A stretch of 22,032 bases of DNA. Origin: a virus. Below, piece after piece: positions 1,969-20,549 of the stretch. The notes under the pieces are model-generated. The model worked only from the letters and a program-made list of their open reading frames with translations, had not been told where the DNA came from and did no database searches. The stretch lies in the IMG/VR virus record IMGVR_UViG_3300048021_000107, positions 1 through 22,032 of that record; one strand, written 5' to 3'. Each line of letters opens with the position of its first letter. Position 1 is the stretch's first letter. The position numbers were made by a program, and so were the translations under genes.

Positions 1969-3981
1969 TTAAGCCTCCAGTGCTTCTATTCTTGCTGTTA
2001 ATGCTGTGATTGTTGCTTGCTGTTCTTGTATGGCTGCCACGAGTAGCGGCACCAGTTTTGCTTGGTCAATTCCTTGATATTTAGGATTGCCATCGTCATC
2101 AACTTCGTTATGACTGCCAGTTACTGCTTCTGGCACAACAGTCTGCGCTTCATGTGCAAGGAAGCCGTCTAGCGTCACACTTGGATTTGCGATGAAGTTA
2201 AAGCGTTTAGGGTTGAGTTGTTTTAATCGGGCTGTGGCTCCGGTCAAATCAACCACATTCTCTTTTAGCCTGTGGTCACTAGAGGTGTTATAAGATATTG
2301 AGGTGCCACCAGAGGCAAAAATCGAACCGATTTGGGTGCCAGCTTCAGAAAAGTTAACTCTAGTTGAGTTGCCGGTGCCAGACGGTGCATTGTTGTCAGC
2401 GTAATAGCTAGAGTTTGCAAAGGCCCAATAATTCTGGTCAGAAGCCCTTTTAGGACCATTGACAACCGTATAGCTACCATCATTGACAATTCTAGGAGCA
2501 CCAACCCCATCTGCTATCACGATGTTGTTGTTGCCTGTGCGGATGTCTAGGCCATTTTGATTGCCGTTGAACCGACCAAGAATGGTGTTGTAGTTGCCGG
2601 TTGTCATTAGACTTCCTGAACTAACGCCTATGGCTGTGTTGTAGGATGCGATGGTGTTGTTTGCAAGTGCATTTTGACCAATCGCAACATTGGCACCCCC
2701 TGTTGTGTTGTAATAAAGCGCATCCTTACCAACTGCCGTGTTGCTGCCTGCGGTTGTATTAAACCTTAAAGCTGAATAACCTATAGCTACGTTATCTACG
2801 CCGCTTGTATTTGCATACCCCGCTGTGTAACCCATAGCAACATTTCTAGCTCCTGTGTTGCTGTAAAGGGCGTAGTTTCCAACAGCAGTGTTGTCGCTTT
2901 GAGTAGTAACTGAATAAAGTGATTGAAAACCAAGGGCTACGTTGTGGGTTCCGGTGGTGTTGTTTTCTAGGGAAGACTCTCCTACAGCAACATTATAATT
3001 ACCGGAGGTATTGTCATATAAAGCAGAGTTGCCAAGTGCGGTATTGCTTGAGCCGGAAGAATTAAATGCTAGAGTATAACCACCTATAGCAGTATTACCC
3101 CCGCCGGTTGTGTTAGTGGTCAATGCAATGTAGCCCACTGCTGTGTTGTTGGATGCGGTGGTGTTTGCCCTCAATGCACTAGAGCCGTAAGCAGTATTGC
3201 TGCTGCCTGTTGTATTGGCTTGCATTGCTTCATTACCAGTAGATGTATTATTATCTCCATCAGTATTATAAAACAAAGAGTTAACGCCAATAGCGATATT
3301 GTAATTACCAGTAGTGTTTGACCTTAAAGATTTACGCCCTAGTGCTACTAATTGAGTGCCGGTAGTATTAGTATAAGCCGCCTCATAACCCACAGCCGTG
3401 TTGTTGTTTGCGGTGGTGTTGTTGTCTAAAGAGCCTAGACCTACAGCTACATTAAAACTTCCAGTAGTGTTTGCTGGTAAGGACTGGTCGCCAATGGCCG
3501 TGTTAGATGCGCCTGTAGTGTTTGCGCCAAGTGCATAATATCCTACGCCGGTATTGTTGCTTGCTGTGTTTGCATACAAACTGTAAGCACCAATAGATGT
3601 GTTTTGAGAACCTGTACTATTAGTTACTGCGTTAAACAAACCAACAGAAGTATTGTTACCACCTGTGGTATTACCCTTACCAGCCTGTCCTCCAATAGAA
3701 GTGTTACCAGCACCTGTGGTGTTTGCAGTCAAAGCCTCAGAACCAACAGCTACATTAAAATTTCCAGACAAGCTACCATCATCAAGCGCATCACCACCCA
3801 ACGCCACATTGCCTGTGCCAGCAAGATATGCGCCGGTTACAAAGTCCTTCTGATGGCTCATCAACTCGCGGATAGCGTTGTTCACGCCGCTAGGAAGCAT
3901 ACCCTCGGCAACGGAAATACCGCCAACGTCAAGGTTGTTGGCAGCGGTGCTGTCGTATTGGTACAGATTGTCTTTAGCCAT
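1969..3981 (-). CDS. Tail fibre with YadA-head-like repeats and S74 chaperone domain (670 aa)
   Basis: A receptor-binding fibre candidate with three parts. Residues 1-57 contain the phrase SGVNNAIRELMSHQKD, shared with the upstream fibre and probably the virion attachment end. Residues about 58-485 hold some 25 repeats of about 17 residues (consensus N-T-A-V-G-x-x-A-L-x-x-N-T-T-G), like the beta-roll head of trimeric YadA-type adhesins. The C-terminus is a Peptidase_S74 (endosialidase-type) intramolecular chaperone with SSDHRLKENV; Ser568 and Lys573 fit the Ser-Lys pair used for self-cleavage, which would release about 103 residues after trimerisation. It ends in a coil (IEALEA). The start overlaps the previous stop by one base and has GGAGG 7 bases upstream. 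Confidence 0.92.
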   Translation of the reverse strand: MAKDNLYQYDSTAANNLDVGGISVAEGMLPSGVNNAIRELMSHQKDFVTGAYLAGTGNVALGGDALDDGSLSGNFNVAVGSEALTANTTGAGNTSIGGQAGKGNTTGGNNTSVGLFNAVTNSTGSQNTSIGAYSLYANTASNNTGVGYYALGANTTGASNTAIGDQSLPANTTGSFNVAVGLGSLDNNTTANNNTAVGYEAAYTNTTGTQLVALGRKSLRSNTTGNYNIAIGVNSLFYNTDGDNNTSTGNEAMQANTTGSSNTAYGSSALRANTTASNNTAVGYIALTTNTTGGGNTAIGGYTLAFNSSGSSNTALGNSALYDNTSGNYNVAVGESSLENNTTGTHNVALGFQSLYSVTTQSDNTAVGNYALYSNTGARNVAMGYTAGYANTSGVDNVAIGYSALRFNTTAGSNTAVGKDALYYNTTGGANVAIGQNALANNTIASYNTAIGVSSGSLMTTGNYNTILGRFNGNQNGLDIRTGNNNIVIADGVGAPRIVNDGSYTVVNGPKRASDQNYWAFANSSYYADNNAPSGTGNSTRVNFSEAGTQIGSIFASGGTSISYNTSSDHRLKENVVDLTGATARLKQLNPKRFNFIANPSVTLDGFLAHEAQTVVPEAVTGSHNEVDDDGNPKYQGIDQAKLVPLLVAAIQEQQATITALTARIEALEA
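2527..3810 (-). repeat. About 25 tandem 17-residue (51-bp) repeats in the fibre gene
   Basis: Within fibre residues about 58-485, units such as NTAVGYIALTTNTTGGG and NVAIGYSALRFNTTAGS follow each other with almost constant 17-residue spacing; two units have 16. DNA-level identity between units is moderate, so these are diverged protein repeats, not recent perfect DNA duplications. The pattern matches the left-handed parallel beta-roll of YadA-type adhesin heads. Confidence 0.9.
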
Positions 3982-18265: not shown

Positions 18266-20332
18266 TTACACCCTCGGCAAGTTAGTAGAAATCTGTGAAT
18301 CTGTTACAGCCTTAGCCACGCGAAGCTCTGCCTCTGCTTGTAACTCTTGACGGCGTAGCTCCATTTCCATCTGCATCTTTTCGCGGTCTAGCATAAGCTG
18401 CTGTTCCATCTTCTCACGTTGCAAAGCGATATTCGCCTCAGCCTTTTGCTGCTCAAGAGCCTGCTGTGCCTGTGCTTTTTGCTGCTCAAGCTGCATAAGC
18501 TGTTGCATCTGCATTTGCTCTGGAGACATCTGTGGAGGCTGTTGTGCCTGCTGTTGCTGCATCATCGCTATCTGCTGTGGTGCATTAAAGAACTGGTCTG
18601 CATCCTTAAAGCCGCCAATCTCAGCAATGCTGCGAAGTGTATTAACGTACTGAGACATTGTAACAACAGGATTGTTTGGCCCTAACTGCTGCAAGATTTG
18701 CTCTTGCTTTGTAGCAATCTGCGTCAGGAACGCAATCTTCTGCTCATCATCAGCCGTTCCAAGCCCAACCTGCACAACAACGTCAAACTCGCTAGTCCAT
18801 TCACGCGGGTCAATCGGCACAAAGTTGTTACGCAGACGCACAATACGCGGTTTGTTATCGTACTTGGTAACCAGATGCAGAATACCACGGAACAAATCCT
18901 TGACGCCTGTCTCAGCCATTGTACGAGCATAGCTCTCTAGCTTGACCTGTGCGCCTCTGACAGTCGCGCTAATAGCACTAGCTGTTGTAGACTGTAGTGC
19001 ATTTGCATCCAAACCCTGTGACGCCTTGCTCATGCCTGTACGCTGTTCTTTGACGTTGTCCAGATAATCCATCAAAGGCCGGATTTCACCGCCTACAGCG
19101 GTGCCTTGAATGGCTTGCACCATACCAGGCTGACGAGCGCGAATAATACCGCCAGCAGTACCCTCAAGCAAATCATCCAGATTCACCTGACCCTCAACAG
19201 CAACCATTCGTGGCAGTGTGCTTGTATATACGCTGTCCAGATACTGGCGCATCAGAGTAGACTTGATGACCTGCAAGTCCTCAGTCATATCATAAATGCT
19301 GCGGCCAATCATACGATGCGGCATAAGGATTGGGCTAACAACGGCAAATGGAACGTGGTCAAACGGCTCGTTATGCAGGATGTGTGCTGCACCGTCACCA
19401 ATTGCACAGATACGGCGGCGTTCTGCAATGCCGTCACCGTCAAAGTCTACGTTCATAATGCACTCGTAGTACACGACCTCACGCAATGTGGGGTCTGCTG
19501 CATCGGTGCCTGTATTTGCTTCTAGGTCTTGAAAGCGATTGGTACGCTCTTGGTCTACATCTAGGTCTGCTGTACCAGCGTGTGCCTCAACCTCATCTCT
19601 GTCATAGCCCATTGCTACGAGGTCAGAAACTGTCATTGTTGTGCGGTGTGCTACAAAATACGCTTCTTCCAGGCTAGTAGCGCGGCGATTTACCAGAAAC
19701 TCCTCTGGCGGTACGTTTATGACTTTAATCTTGCCCTTGCGCTCTGTAACACGGACTGACAAGTCATAATTACTTTCAAGAGGAACCACCGTTCCATCTT
19801 CTTCCATATACGAATTAACAACGGTTTCTTGCTGCTCAACCACATCAATGTCTGGGTTAGACAAGAGCGCAGCCAGTTCATTCTCATCAAGTCCATTATA
19901 TTCTTCTTCAGTGACATTCTCTTCTTCCTCATAGAAATACTTTACAACGCCAAGACGGAACAACAAGGCATCTTTAAACCAGTTATACAGGATTTTGTAG
20001 CCTTCATTATCGTGGTTGATAATGTAGTTTACATAGTCACTAACCTGTTCAGCACGTTCTACATCTTCTGCTGTGCGAGGGCTAAAGCGCACATACTTGT
20101 CGTTTGCCGTAAACACACGCATCAGGTTTGGCATAATAGCCTCGACCGTATCTGCTACCTCTGTGCTAACAACTGATGACCGGCCTTGAACCTCGTTGCC
20201 AAATGGCTCACCAAGGTAAAAATCCATTGCACGAATGCGGTCTTGAGAAAATTCACTGTCGAAATGATTAAGGGCATCTGTTACTTCCGAAGAAACAATG
20301 CTGTTAAGCTGATACTCATCCATTTTTGGCAT
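18266..20332 (-). CDS. Portal protein, SU10-type (688 aa)
   Basis: Forms the dodecameric ring at the head vertex through which DNA is packaged and ejected. I start at ATG 20332 because AAGGA lies 8 bases before it; an ATG ten codons upstream has no such site. Features are the N-terminal RIRAMDFYLGEPFGNEVQGR-like region with DRIRAMDFYLGEP, SSVVSTEVADTVEAIMPNLM, the central RMVAVEGQVNLDDLLEGTAG, TGMSKASQGLDANALQSTTA, and EFDVVVQVGLGTADDEQKIA, all typical of this portal family. The last 110 residues are a Gln/Met-rich coiled coil, probably the barrel or crown. It overlaps the preceding small gene by 17 bases and directly precedes the acyltransferase. Confidence 0.93.
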   Translation of the reverse strand: MPKMDEYQLNSIVSSEVTDALNHFDSEFSQDRIRAMDFYLGEPFGNEVQGRSSVVSTEVADTVEAIMPNLMRVFTANDKYVRFSPRTAEDVERAEQVSDYVNYIINHDNEGYKILYNWFKDALLFRLGVVKYFYEEEENVTEEEYNGLDENELAALLSNPDIDVVEQQETVVNSYMEEDGTVVPLESNYDLSVRVTERKGKIKVINVPPEEFLVNRRATSLEEAYFVAHRTTMTVSDLVAMGYDRDEVEAHAGTADLDVDQERTNRFQDLEANTGTDAADPTLREVVYYECIMNVDFDGDGIAERRRICAIGDGAAHILHNEPFDHVPFAVVSPILMPHRMIGRSIYDMTEDLQVIKSTLMRQYLDSVYTSTLPRMVAVEGQVNLDDLLEGTAGGIIRARQPGMVQAIQGTAVGGEIRPLMDYLDNVKEQRTGMSKASQGLDANALQSTTASAISATVRGAQVKLESYARTMAETGVKDLFRGILHLVTKYDNKPRIVRLRNNFVPIDPREWTSEFDVVVQVGLGTADDEQKIAFLTQIATKQEQILQQLGPNNPVVTMSQYVNTLRSIAEIGGFKDADQFFNAPQQIAMMQQQQAQQPPQMSPEQMQMQQLMQLEQQKAQAQQALEQQKAEANIALQREKMEQQLMLDREKMQMEMELRRQELQAEAELRVAKAVTDSQISTNLPRV

Positions 20333-20549
20333 TTGATTTTTCCTTCGGCTTGGTTTGCCCATACATACAGCAGCCAGAGCTTTTGCACATCTTCTTTGCT
20401 ACGCAGCCCTTGCAAGTCTCAAAACTTGGCAACGCTTCTACTTTCGCAGATGCAGAAACGGAAGCCTTAGCTATTGCTTGAGCTTCCTTACTTAGTTCTA
20501 CTGGCCTGGGGCGTTGCACAGGCGGCCTTCTCATAACTCTGGTAAACAT
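20316..20549 (-). CDS. Small basic Cys-motif protein (77 aa)
   Basis: ATG 20549 overlaps the preceding stop (TAATG). A basic Arg/Pro N-terminus (MRRPPVQRPRPVEL) and an Ala/Ser helix lead to a cysteine cluster, CKGCVAKKMCKSSGCCM, with Cys at 46, 49, 55, 60 and 61. The spacing C-x2-C-x5-C-x5-C equals that in the protein encoded at 20692-20880, so a metal or iron-sulphur site is likely. The end overlaps the portal start. Function unknown. Confidence 0.75.
   Translation of the reverse strand: MFTRVMRRPPVQRPRPVELSKEAQAIAKASVSASAKVEALPSFETCKGCVAKKMCKSSGCCMYGQTKPKEKSNAKNG

Follow-up and report, generated by a model that had tools for sequence, protein, structure and literature searches.

Three groups among the closest described systems are introduced first. 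The first comprises the S74 auto-processing fibres, among them phage T5 pb1, the K1F endosialidase, the Bdellovibrio MAT fibres and MyRF. Cleavage of T5 pb1 has been placed at Thr1263-Ser1264 (PMC4690869), and in the Bdellovibrio fibres the motif has been named SDxxxK and the substitution S782A blocks cleavage (PMC10769870). S587 and K592 of MyRF have been equated with S911 and K916 of endoNF (PMC8326128). A stalk arginine 14 residues before the serine is described as taking part in endoNF (R897) and in T5 (R1250) (PMC8326128, PMC4690869); in MyRF none of the stalk residues extends as far as the reaction centre (PMC8326128).

The second group is the heads of trimeric autotransporters such as YadA and BpaC (PF05658). 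An account of these describes layers of 14 residues, mostly 15 in UspA1, and a 14-residue YadA layer in which T is common at position 5, A is conserved at position 6, position 7 is usually hydrophobic and position 8 is G; it also speculates that layers are added to or removed from BpaC (PMC9543794). The third is represented by a tail fibre of pelagiphage type for which Mizuno et al. (2014) described a YadA-like domain at the C-terminus, and a figure key in that paper lists S74 and a YadA-like match (3S6L_A); the YadA-like region recruits poorly in a metavirome and was read there as variable (PMC3909814).

The fibre gene compared with these systems here lies in a window of 22,032 nucleotides, positions 1 to 22,032 of the IMG/VR record IMGVR_UViG_3300048021_000107 (Table 1). 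Its 670-residue product is nothing unusual within a widespread kind, the S74 phage fibre with an array of 17-residue coils, and the points of use are a firm 17-residue period and, among relatives, the in-register turnover of units. We regard it as quite probable that a single explanation covers the whole, namely a homotrimeric fibre with a rod built of one coil per unit, a self-cleaving S74 domain and units that turn over in register.

Table 1. Positions of the fibre gene, its parts and two other genes in the window
Feature	Position	Strand	Remark
Tail fibre gene, 670 aa, 68.1 kDa	1969..3981	minus	
N-terminal module, residues 1-57	3811..3981	minus	putative virion-attachment end
25 units of 17-aa repeat, residues 58-481	2539..3810	minus	
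Array end-cap and distal tip, residues 482-567	2281..2538	minus	low AF2 confidence
Peptidase_S74 / intramolecular chaperone, residues 568-670	1972..2280	minus	
Ser568 codon	2278..2280	minus	predicted scissile and catalytic serine
Lys573 codon	2263..2265	minus	
Second fibre, 505 aa	3981..5498	minus	
Portal of phage SU10 family	18266..20362	minus	PF23899, 5.5e-207

The fibre gene, its neighbours and its S74 domain

The original prediction of a phage fibre with an S74 domain at Ser568 is borne out on both counts. The gene sits among virion genes, the interval between portal and fibre being occupied by head (major head), scaffold and virion-protein genes, and 12 PHROG families match the fibre at E≤0.01, most of them concerned with tail or virion structure and tail-fibre families among them. 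The window yielded no tRNA, nor any Rfam match at gathering scores. The Peptidase_S74 match (Pfam PF13884, 35.4 bits against a cut-off of 22) covers residues 568-621, with Ser568, which opens the motif SDHRLK, as its position 1.

The 505-aa fibre lies directly upstream, its last base being the first base of the 670-aa gene. It has a related N-terminal module and an S74 domain around a different middle in which the unit counter found 1 unit, and its start is 31% identical to residues 1-147 of the 670-aa protein. Relatives of residues 1-57 occur in 51 IMG/VR loci, the contig of the nearest known genome (L005) included. A text pattern recognised this anchor in 29 of the 51, which hold 21 complete fibres, 8 with the array (the L005 contig among them) and 13 with other distal parts. 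At L086 and L087 the neighbour proteins are 94% and 92% identical to those of the window (best segment), but other proteins lie beside them; the adjoining protein of L086 has an anchor-like start, and neither locus has an array of at least 4 units in the stretch examined. We infer that the fibre locus is an exchangeable host-recognition cassette.

We used an alignment of 32 proteins, this one and 31 relatives chosen from the other 59 array-bearing frames (60 in all), mostly frames with an S74 motif. Pfam matches S74 in all 32 at E≤1, and Ser568, Arg571 and Lys573 are invariant throughout. The alignment profile matches the ICA domain of MyRF (3e-10) and two solved phage fibres (6.7e-9 and 4.1e-6), and Foldseek likewise matches the MyRF ICA with a probability of 1.00 (E 7.7e-4). 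Further, a long C-terminal helix is predicted at residues 640-669. The protein shares with the S74 auto-processing fibres a C-terminal S74 domain above cut-off, the SDxxxK motif with invariant serine and lysine, a predicted C-terminal helix, and both a profile and a fold match to the MyRF ICA. It differs from them in its 17-residue shaft and in having no arginine 14 residues before the serine, where residue 554 is an isoleucine. Because stalk residues of MyRF miss the reaction centre, this arginine is not strictly defining of S74 domains. By motif, Ser568, Arg571 and Lys573 would correspond to MyRF S587, R590 and K592, and the Ser-Lys dyad stands at the domain start as S568-D-H-R-L-K573. Since the motif matches those of MyRF, endoNF, the Bdellovibrio fibres and T5 pb1, self-cleavage is expected between residues 567 and 568, giving fragments of 57.0 and 11.1 kDa, of which the C-terminal 11.1-kDa fragment would be released.

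Taken together, the protein may be pictured as a homotrimeric phage tail fibre attached to the virion by residues 1-57. In residues 58-481 each 17-residue unit would make one beta coil, and the 25 coils would stack into a rod of some 12 nm if each rises by the 4.8 Å reported for YadA-type rolls (PMC9543794). Residues 482-567, in which LDIRT...NIV..DG.G is conserved in relatives, would form a capped distal tip. By homology, the S74 domain would trimerise via its helix, fold the tip, then cut before Ser568 with the Ser568/Lys573 dyad, and depart.

The 17-residue repeat and its spread

The protein was compared with itself, and identity peaks at a lag of 17 (0.36 over residues 56-505). In 1000 shuffles of the protein no lag between 8 and 39 gave more than 0.166. 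A profile chain counts 25 units with starts at residues 58-465 and an array reaching residue 481, in which the spacing is 17 in 21 of 24 cases, 16 in two and 18 in one; shuffled proteins yield at most 5 units (200 shuffles). The profile was built from the protein's own units, so that the count holds partly by construction, which is not true of the lag test. The count agrees with the "about 25 repeats" predicted earlier. The earlier consensus had the motif right and lacked two variable positions, the unit being 17 residues long and not 15: N-[TV]-A-[VI]-G-x-x-[AS]-L-x-x-N-T-T-G-x-x. Within this array positions N1, A3, G5, A/S8, T13 and T14 are constant and positions 6, 7, 10, 11, 16 and 17 vary. 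Across 4724 distinct units, columns 1, 5 and 13 show almost no variation (N 0.90, G 0.98 and T 0.87) and columns 6, 7, 10, 11, 16 and 17 are free (3.1-3.8 bits).

At the DNA level the units of this gene are diverged, with a mean nucleotide identity of 48% and a best pair of 73%, and a tandem repeat finder reported no array in the fibre gene. Given that the units share only 48% of their bases on average, we consider slippage on near-identical repeats an unlikely source of copy change in this gene.

The same repeat is present in proteins of Pelagibacter phage HTVC112P, Roseobacter phage CRP-7, Methylophilales phage Venkman and Prochlorococcus phage P-SSM2, which match at 34-40% identity over 79-89% of the fibre (tblastn) and are annotated variously as putative tail fiber, tail structural protein, FhaB-like adhesion protein and proximal tail fiber. 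These matches start at query residue 50 or 122, which points to another N-terminal end. Overall, tblastn matched 163 records in a set of 50,697 from phages, a figure that includes records matching at the S74 end alone, and 3 of them cover at least 80% of the protein. The fibre of Mizuno et al. is likewise a marine phage fibre, but it is described with a T7-like N-terminus, unlike the one studied here (PMC3909814). Among bacterial and archaeal genomes we found 22 loci, 17 of them Bacteroidota by title, and a text pattern detected an S74-like motif in 14 of the 28 array-bearing frames of these cellular loci. An FhaB-like adhesion protein of Bodo saltans virus (BFVD A0A2H4UUJ5), which we take to be a virus of a protist, is the best predicted-structure match, with 43% identity over 384 columns, an rmsd of 3.3 and a TM of 0.48 by query; the model is a 1210-residue piece of a longer protein, and the virus lies outside the phages. 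Among the matches listed in our search of the fibre and repeat literature, titles and abstract openings did not describe a 17-residue repeat.

The boundaries between units also follow a pattern. At 1103 of 5245 unit boundaries, which we call connectors, column 15 is A instead of G, and NTAVGY opens the next unit in 438 of these 1103, compared with 116 of the 4142 other boundaries. Relative to a geometric chance model, connectors spaced 2-5 units apart are commoner and adjacent connectors are rare (70 vs 191). In the present fibre, connectors of the form TTA-x-x-NTAVGY follow units 8, 13, 21 and 23, and another lies in the 16-residue unit 5.

Connectors were also considered as nodes of DNA recombination, an idea suggested by the 30-mers that cross the TTA connectors, 6.3% of which are shared between array clusters, vs 1.4-1.5% elsewhere. 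This was ruled out, as the DNA likeness of 10-residue peptides shared between clusters is no higher at connectors (0.812, n = 366) than at TTG boundaries (0.809, n = 1384) or elsewhere (0.835, n = 3717). Conservation of protein, not of DNA, thus accounts for the sharing of connectors between clusters.

Fold of the array

AF2 modelled the full protein with a mean pLDDT of 75 and one short-strand coil per unit. Per ten residues, pLDDT is 79-93 for residues 71-390 and 51-66 for residues 401-450, where short helices appear instead of strands. A 12-unit fragment (49 sequences) gave the same coil at a pLDDT of 86, the five models ranging from 86 to 61. On these models the array is likely a stack of coils, one per unit. 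Of the beta-roll shaft proposed earlier, a coil per unit is predicted, but the solved structures nearest to the model are right-handed beta-helices.

In VIA-align, where a middling Z for repeats may mean just a common arrangement, the full model matched Vag8 best (7akv; Z 19.4, rmsd 2.9, 287 aligned), the Sf6 tailspike was matched with Z 15.3 (rmsd 2.8, 237 aligned), and the fragment matched AlgE4 (Z 14.6, rmsd 2.6, 197 aligned). We take these chains to be right-handed beta-helices. These rows favour a right-handed parallel beta-helix in each chain, as in tailspikes and autotransporter passengers, with three such helices side by side, and we give this reading a real, if somewhat less than even, chance. 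Seventeen residues is a short turn for that fold, which counts against it. Against the PDB, Foldseek also gives the array weak matches (best E 0.013, TM 0.09-0.12; best E 0.029 for the fragment), and besides the VIA-align caution for repeats there is the reported tendency of AF2 to over-predict confident beta-solenoids for repeats (PMC11795689).

Alternatively, the array may be an interwound triple beta-helix of three chains, like the stalks beside other S74 domains, in which case the monomer model would be wrong. S74 proteins are described as carrying intertwined trimeric beta-helices (PMC10769870, PMC4690869), and interwinding is invisible to monomer prediction. However, the same constant positions recur at a strict spacing of 17, AF2 gives a confident single-chain coil, and the model of the BFVD homologue aligns with an rmsd of 3.3 over 384 columns, although it shares the AF2 bias; we therefore think this arrangement unlikely.

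The original prediction was of repeats in the form of bacterial trimeric adhesin heads, grafted between a phage attachment end and an S74 domain; neither a YadA-type head nor a graft from bacterial adhesins is supported by our results. The period is 17 rather than 14-15, and YadA_head (PF05658) is absent from this protein (E≤10), from five long relatives (E≤10) and from all 32 aligned proteins (0/32, E≤1). No YadA-like PDB chain was matched at E≤10 by the protein, the fibre profile or a profile of the 12-unit stretch, and no PDB chain of any kind was matched by sequence at E≤10 with this protein alone. Pfam at E≤10 finds only S74 and a sub-threshold LbH match, with no YadA-type outer-membrane anchor. 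Foldseek and VIA-align also had no YadA-like chain among the matches listed, an absence that is not evidence against the fold. As regards grafting, none of six cellular proteins scanned has a YadA anchor and four of the six have S74; three of the six end at the contig end, where an anchor could be missing.

An ORF in the alphaproteobacterial MAG L156 served as a control. Its 14-residue array matches YadA_head at 4.9e-11, and the 14-mer stretch alone matches BpaC, 1p9h (named Invasin) and six more chains at E≤0.01. We take 1p9h to be the YadA head. Aligned by hhalign with a small five-fragment alignment of the L156 14-mers, the 17-mer profile reached a probability of only 2.7% (E 0.017). The L156 ORF (1245-11744) encodes a very long protein whose end lies beyond the stretch and which has separate 17-residue blocks as well as true 14-residue YadA_head blocks.

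A true left-handed parallel beta-roll head of the YadA type, in a trimer and with longer layers of 17 residues, is in our view distinctly unlikely, the period, the missing PF05658 and YadA-like PDB sequence matches (both of which a true 14-mer array gives) and the hhalign result all speaking against it. Some observations do lean its way. The T/V-A-V/I-G of the unit fits positions 5-8 of the 14-residue layer, and weak left-handed beta-helix matches were obtained, none at a curated cut-off or safe E-value: LbH_GLGC at 0.0043 (L038), LbH_EIF2B at best 0.04 in 3 of the 32 aligned proteins, and, by sequence at 0.032 and 0.13, the left-handed beta-helix chain 7ar9_z "CA3". The last is presumably a gamma carbonic anhydrase with that fold. 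One marine phage fibre also has a reported YadA-like match (PMC3909814). As far as sequence goes, the name "YadA head" would fit the array only as a partial likeness of motif: T/V-A-V/I-G is common to the array and the trimeric autotransporter heads, but theirs are layers of 14-15 residues and this fibre has neither a PF05658 match nor a YadA anchor. We would warn against naming such 17-residue repeats "YadA heads".

Unit number among relatives

Relatives differ in unit number, and the variability foreseen in the original prediction is thus found, the number not being fixed. The viral loci fetched contain 265 frames with at least 4 units, which represent 217 distinct arrays; 158 of these are complete, that is, in frames bounded by stops inside the contig, some of which may be broken genes (L029 has two such frames). 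The survey did not extend to the 22 cellular loci or to frames in L001-L004, L085 or L093. The complete arrays carry 4-109 units, a range that describes the loci fetched, three of the similarity searches having supplied the best 80 of 174, 364 and 595 matches. Two arrays of 4 units are within counter noise and may be chance, and all others have at least 6. Within the 158 arrays the spacing is exactly 17 in 3553 of 4237 cases. Fibres with the same anchor as the present one have 11, 15, 22, 24 and 25 units, the 11-unit array of L096 standing at the same place between four flanking pieces that are 88-91% identical to this locus.

Differences also occur between nearly identical sequences. L006 and L007 have 27 and 28 units between flanks of 99.8% and 99.9% identical DNA; they differ at one spot within the array, where 46 unaligned bases of L006 face 97 of L007, the net difference of 51 being one unit, and each has private units. 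L044 and L084 have 22 and 17 units and are 99.6% identical over 4624 nt downstream and 96% identical over 454 nt upstream, the L044 gene being truncated on its 5' side, ahead of the array, where the contig ends. Both again have private units, and the 17-unit array is also present in L225, whose contig name refers to a different metagenome. As we read the alignments, both pairs differ by in-register replacement inside the array. L343 and L344, the loosest near-identical pair (DNA pieces 91-98%), have 9 and 10 units. L111 and L113 (24 and 22 units; DNA pieces 97%, 96% and 88%), whose tips differ, failed the pair filter, which required identity above 90% in the stretches flanking the array, at most 40 aa ahead of it and at most 120 aa behind it. 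Unit counts are equal in 6 of the 9 near-identical pairs; since identical arrays were merged before pairing (265 frames to 217 distinct arrays), 3 differing pairs in 9 should not be taken as a rate. L005, the nearest known genome, is 99.74% identical over 10,392 aligned bases, and its fibre gene has 25 units with 0 of 2013 bases changed.

We think it very unlikely that mis-assembly produced these differences and that unit number is really constant within a lineage. In favour of this reading, repeat arrays are hard to assemble and metagenome contigs can be mis-assembled at repeats, this gene and L005 agree exactly, 6 of 9 near-identical pairs have equal counts, and each L006/L007 allele was seen in one contig only. 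Against it, the private units in each member of both pairs mean that neither array can have arisen by simple collapse of its partner, the array of L084 is found again in L225, and same-anchor fibres range from 11 to 25 units.

Under the reading we prefer, a homotrimeric fibre whose units turn over in register, whole units could be lost, gained or exchanged without breaking the fold, because the coil would be the unit of construction. As units would be exchangeable in this way, fibre length and side surface may change between otherwise identical phages, presumably to the benefit of the phage. The idea of gain and loss of layers is shared with the trimeric autotransporter heads, for which it was speculated in the case of BpaC (PMC9543794). 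A change of receptor specificity, as foreseen in the original prediction, would be a further conceivable effect of unit number. The cells within reach of a phage depend in part on the length and surface of its fibre, and natural alleles one to five units apart in a nearly identical gene are material with which to ask whether unit number alone alters adsorption.

More broadly, we tentatively suggest, as a possibility that we would not call probable, that the 17-residue arrays make up a beta-solenoid shaft family of their own, separate from YadA heads and shared by phages, by some large DNA viruses and by S74 proteins of bacteria. In this view whole coils would be swapped in register at such a pace that phages otherwise nearly identical come to differ in the length and side surface of their fibres, and TTA-x-x-NTAVGY connectors every 2-5 units may set a higher-order register of the rod.

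The arrays can also be very long: L216 and L217, which have near-identical flanks, carry 102 units each, and the longest complete array has 109 units.
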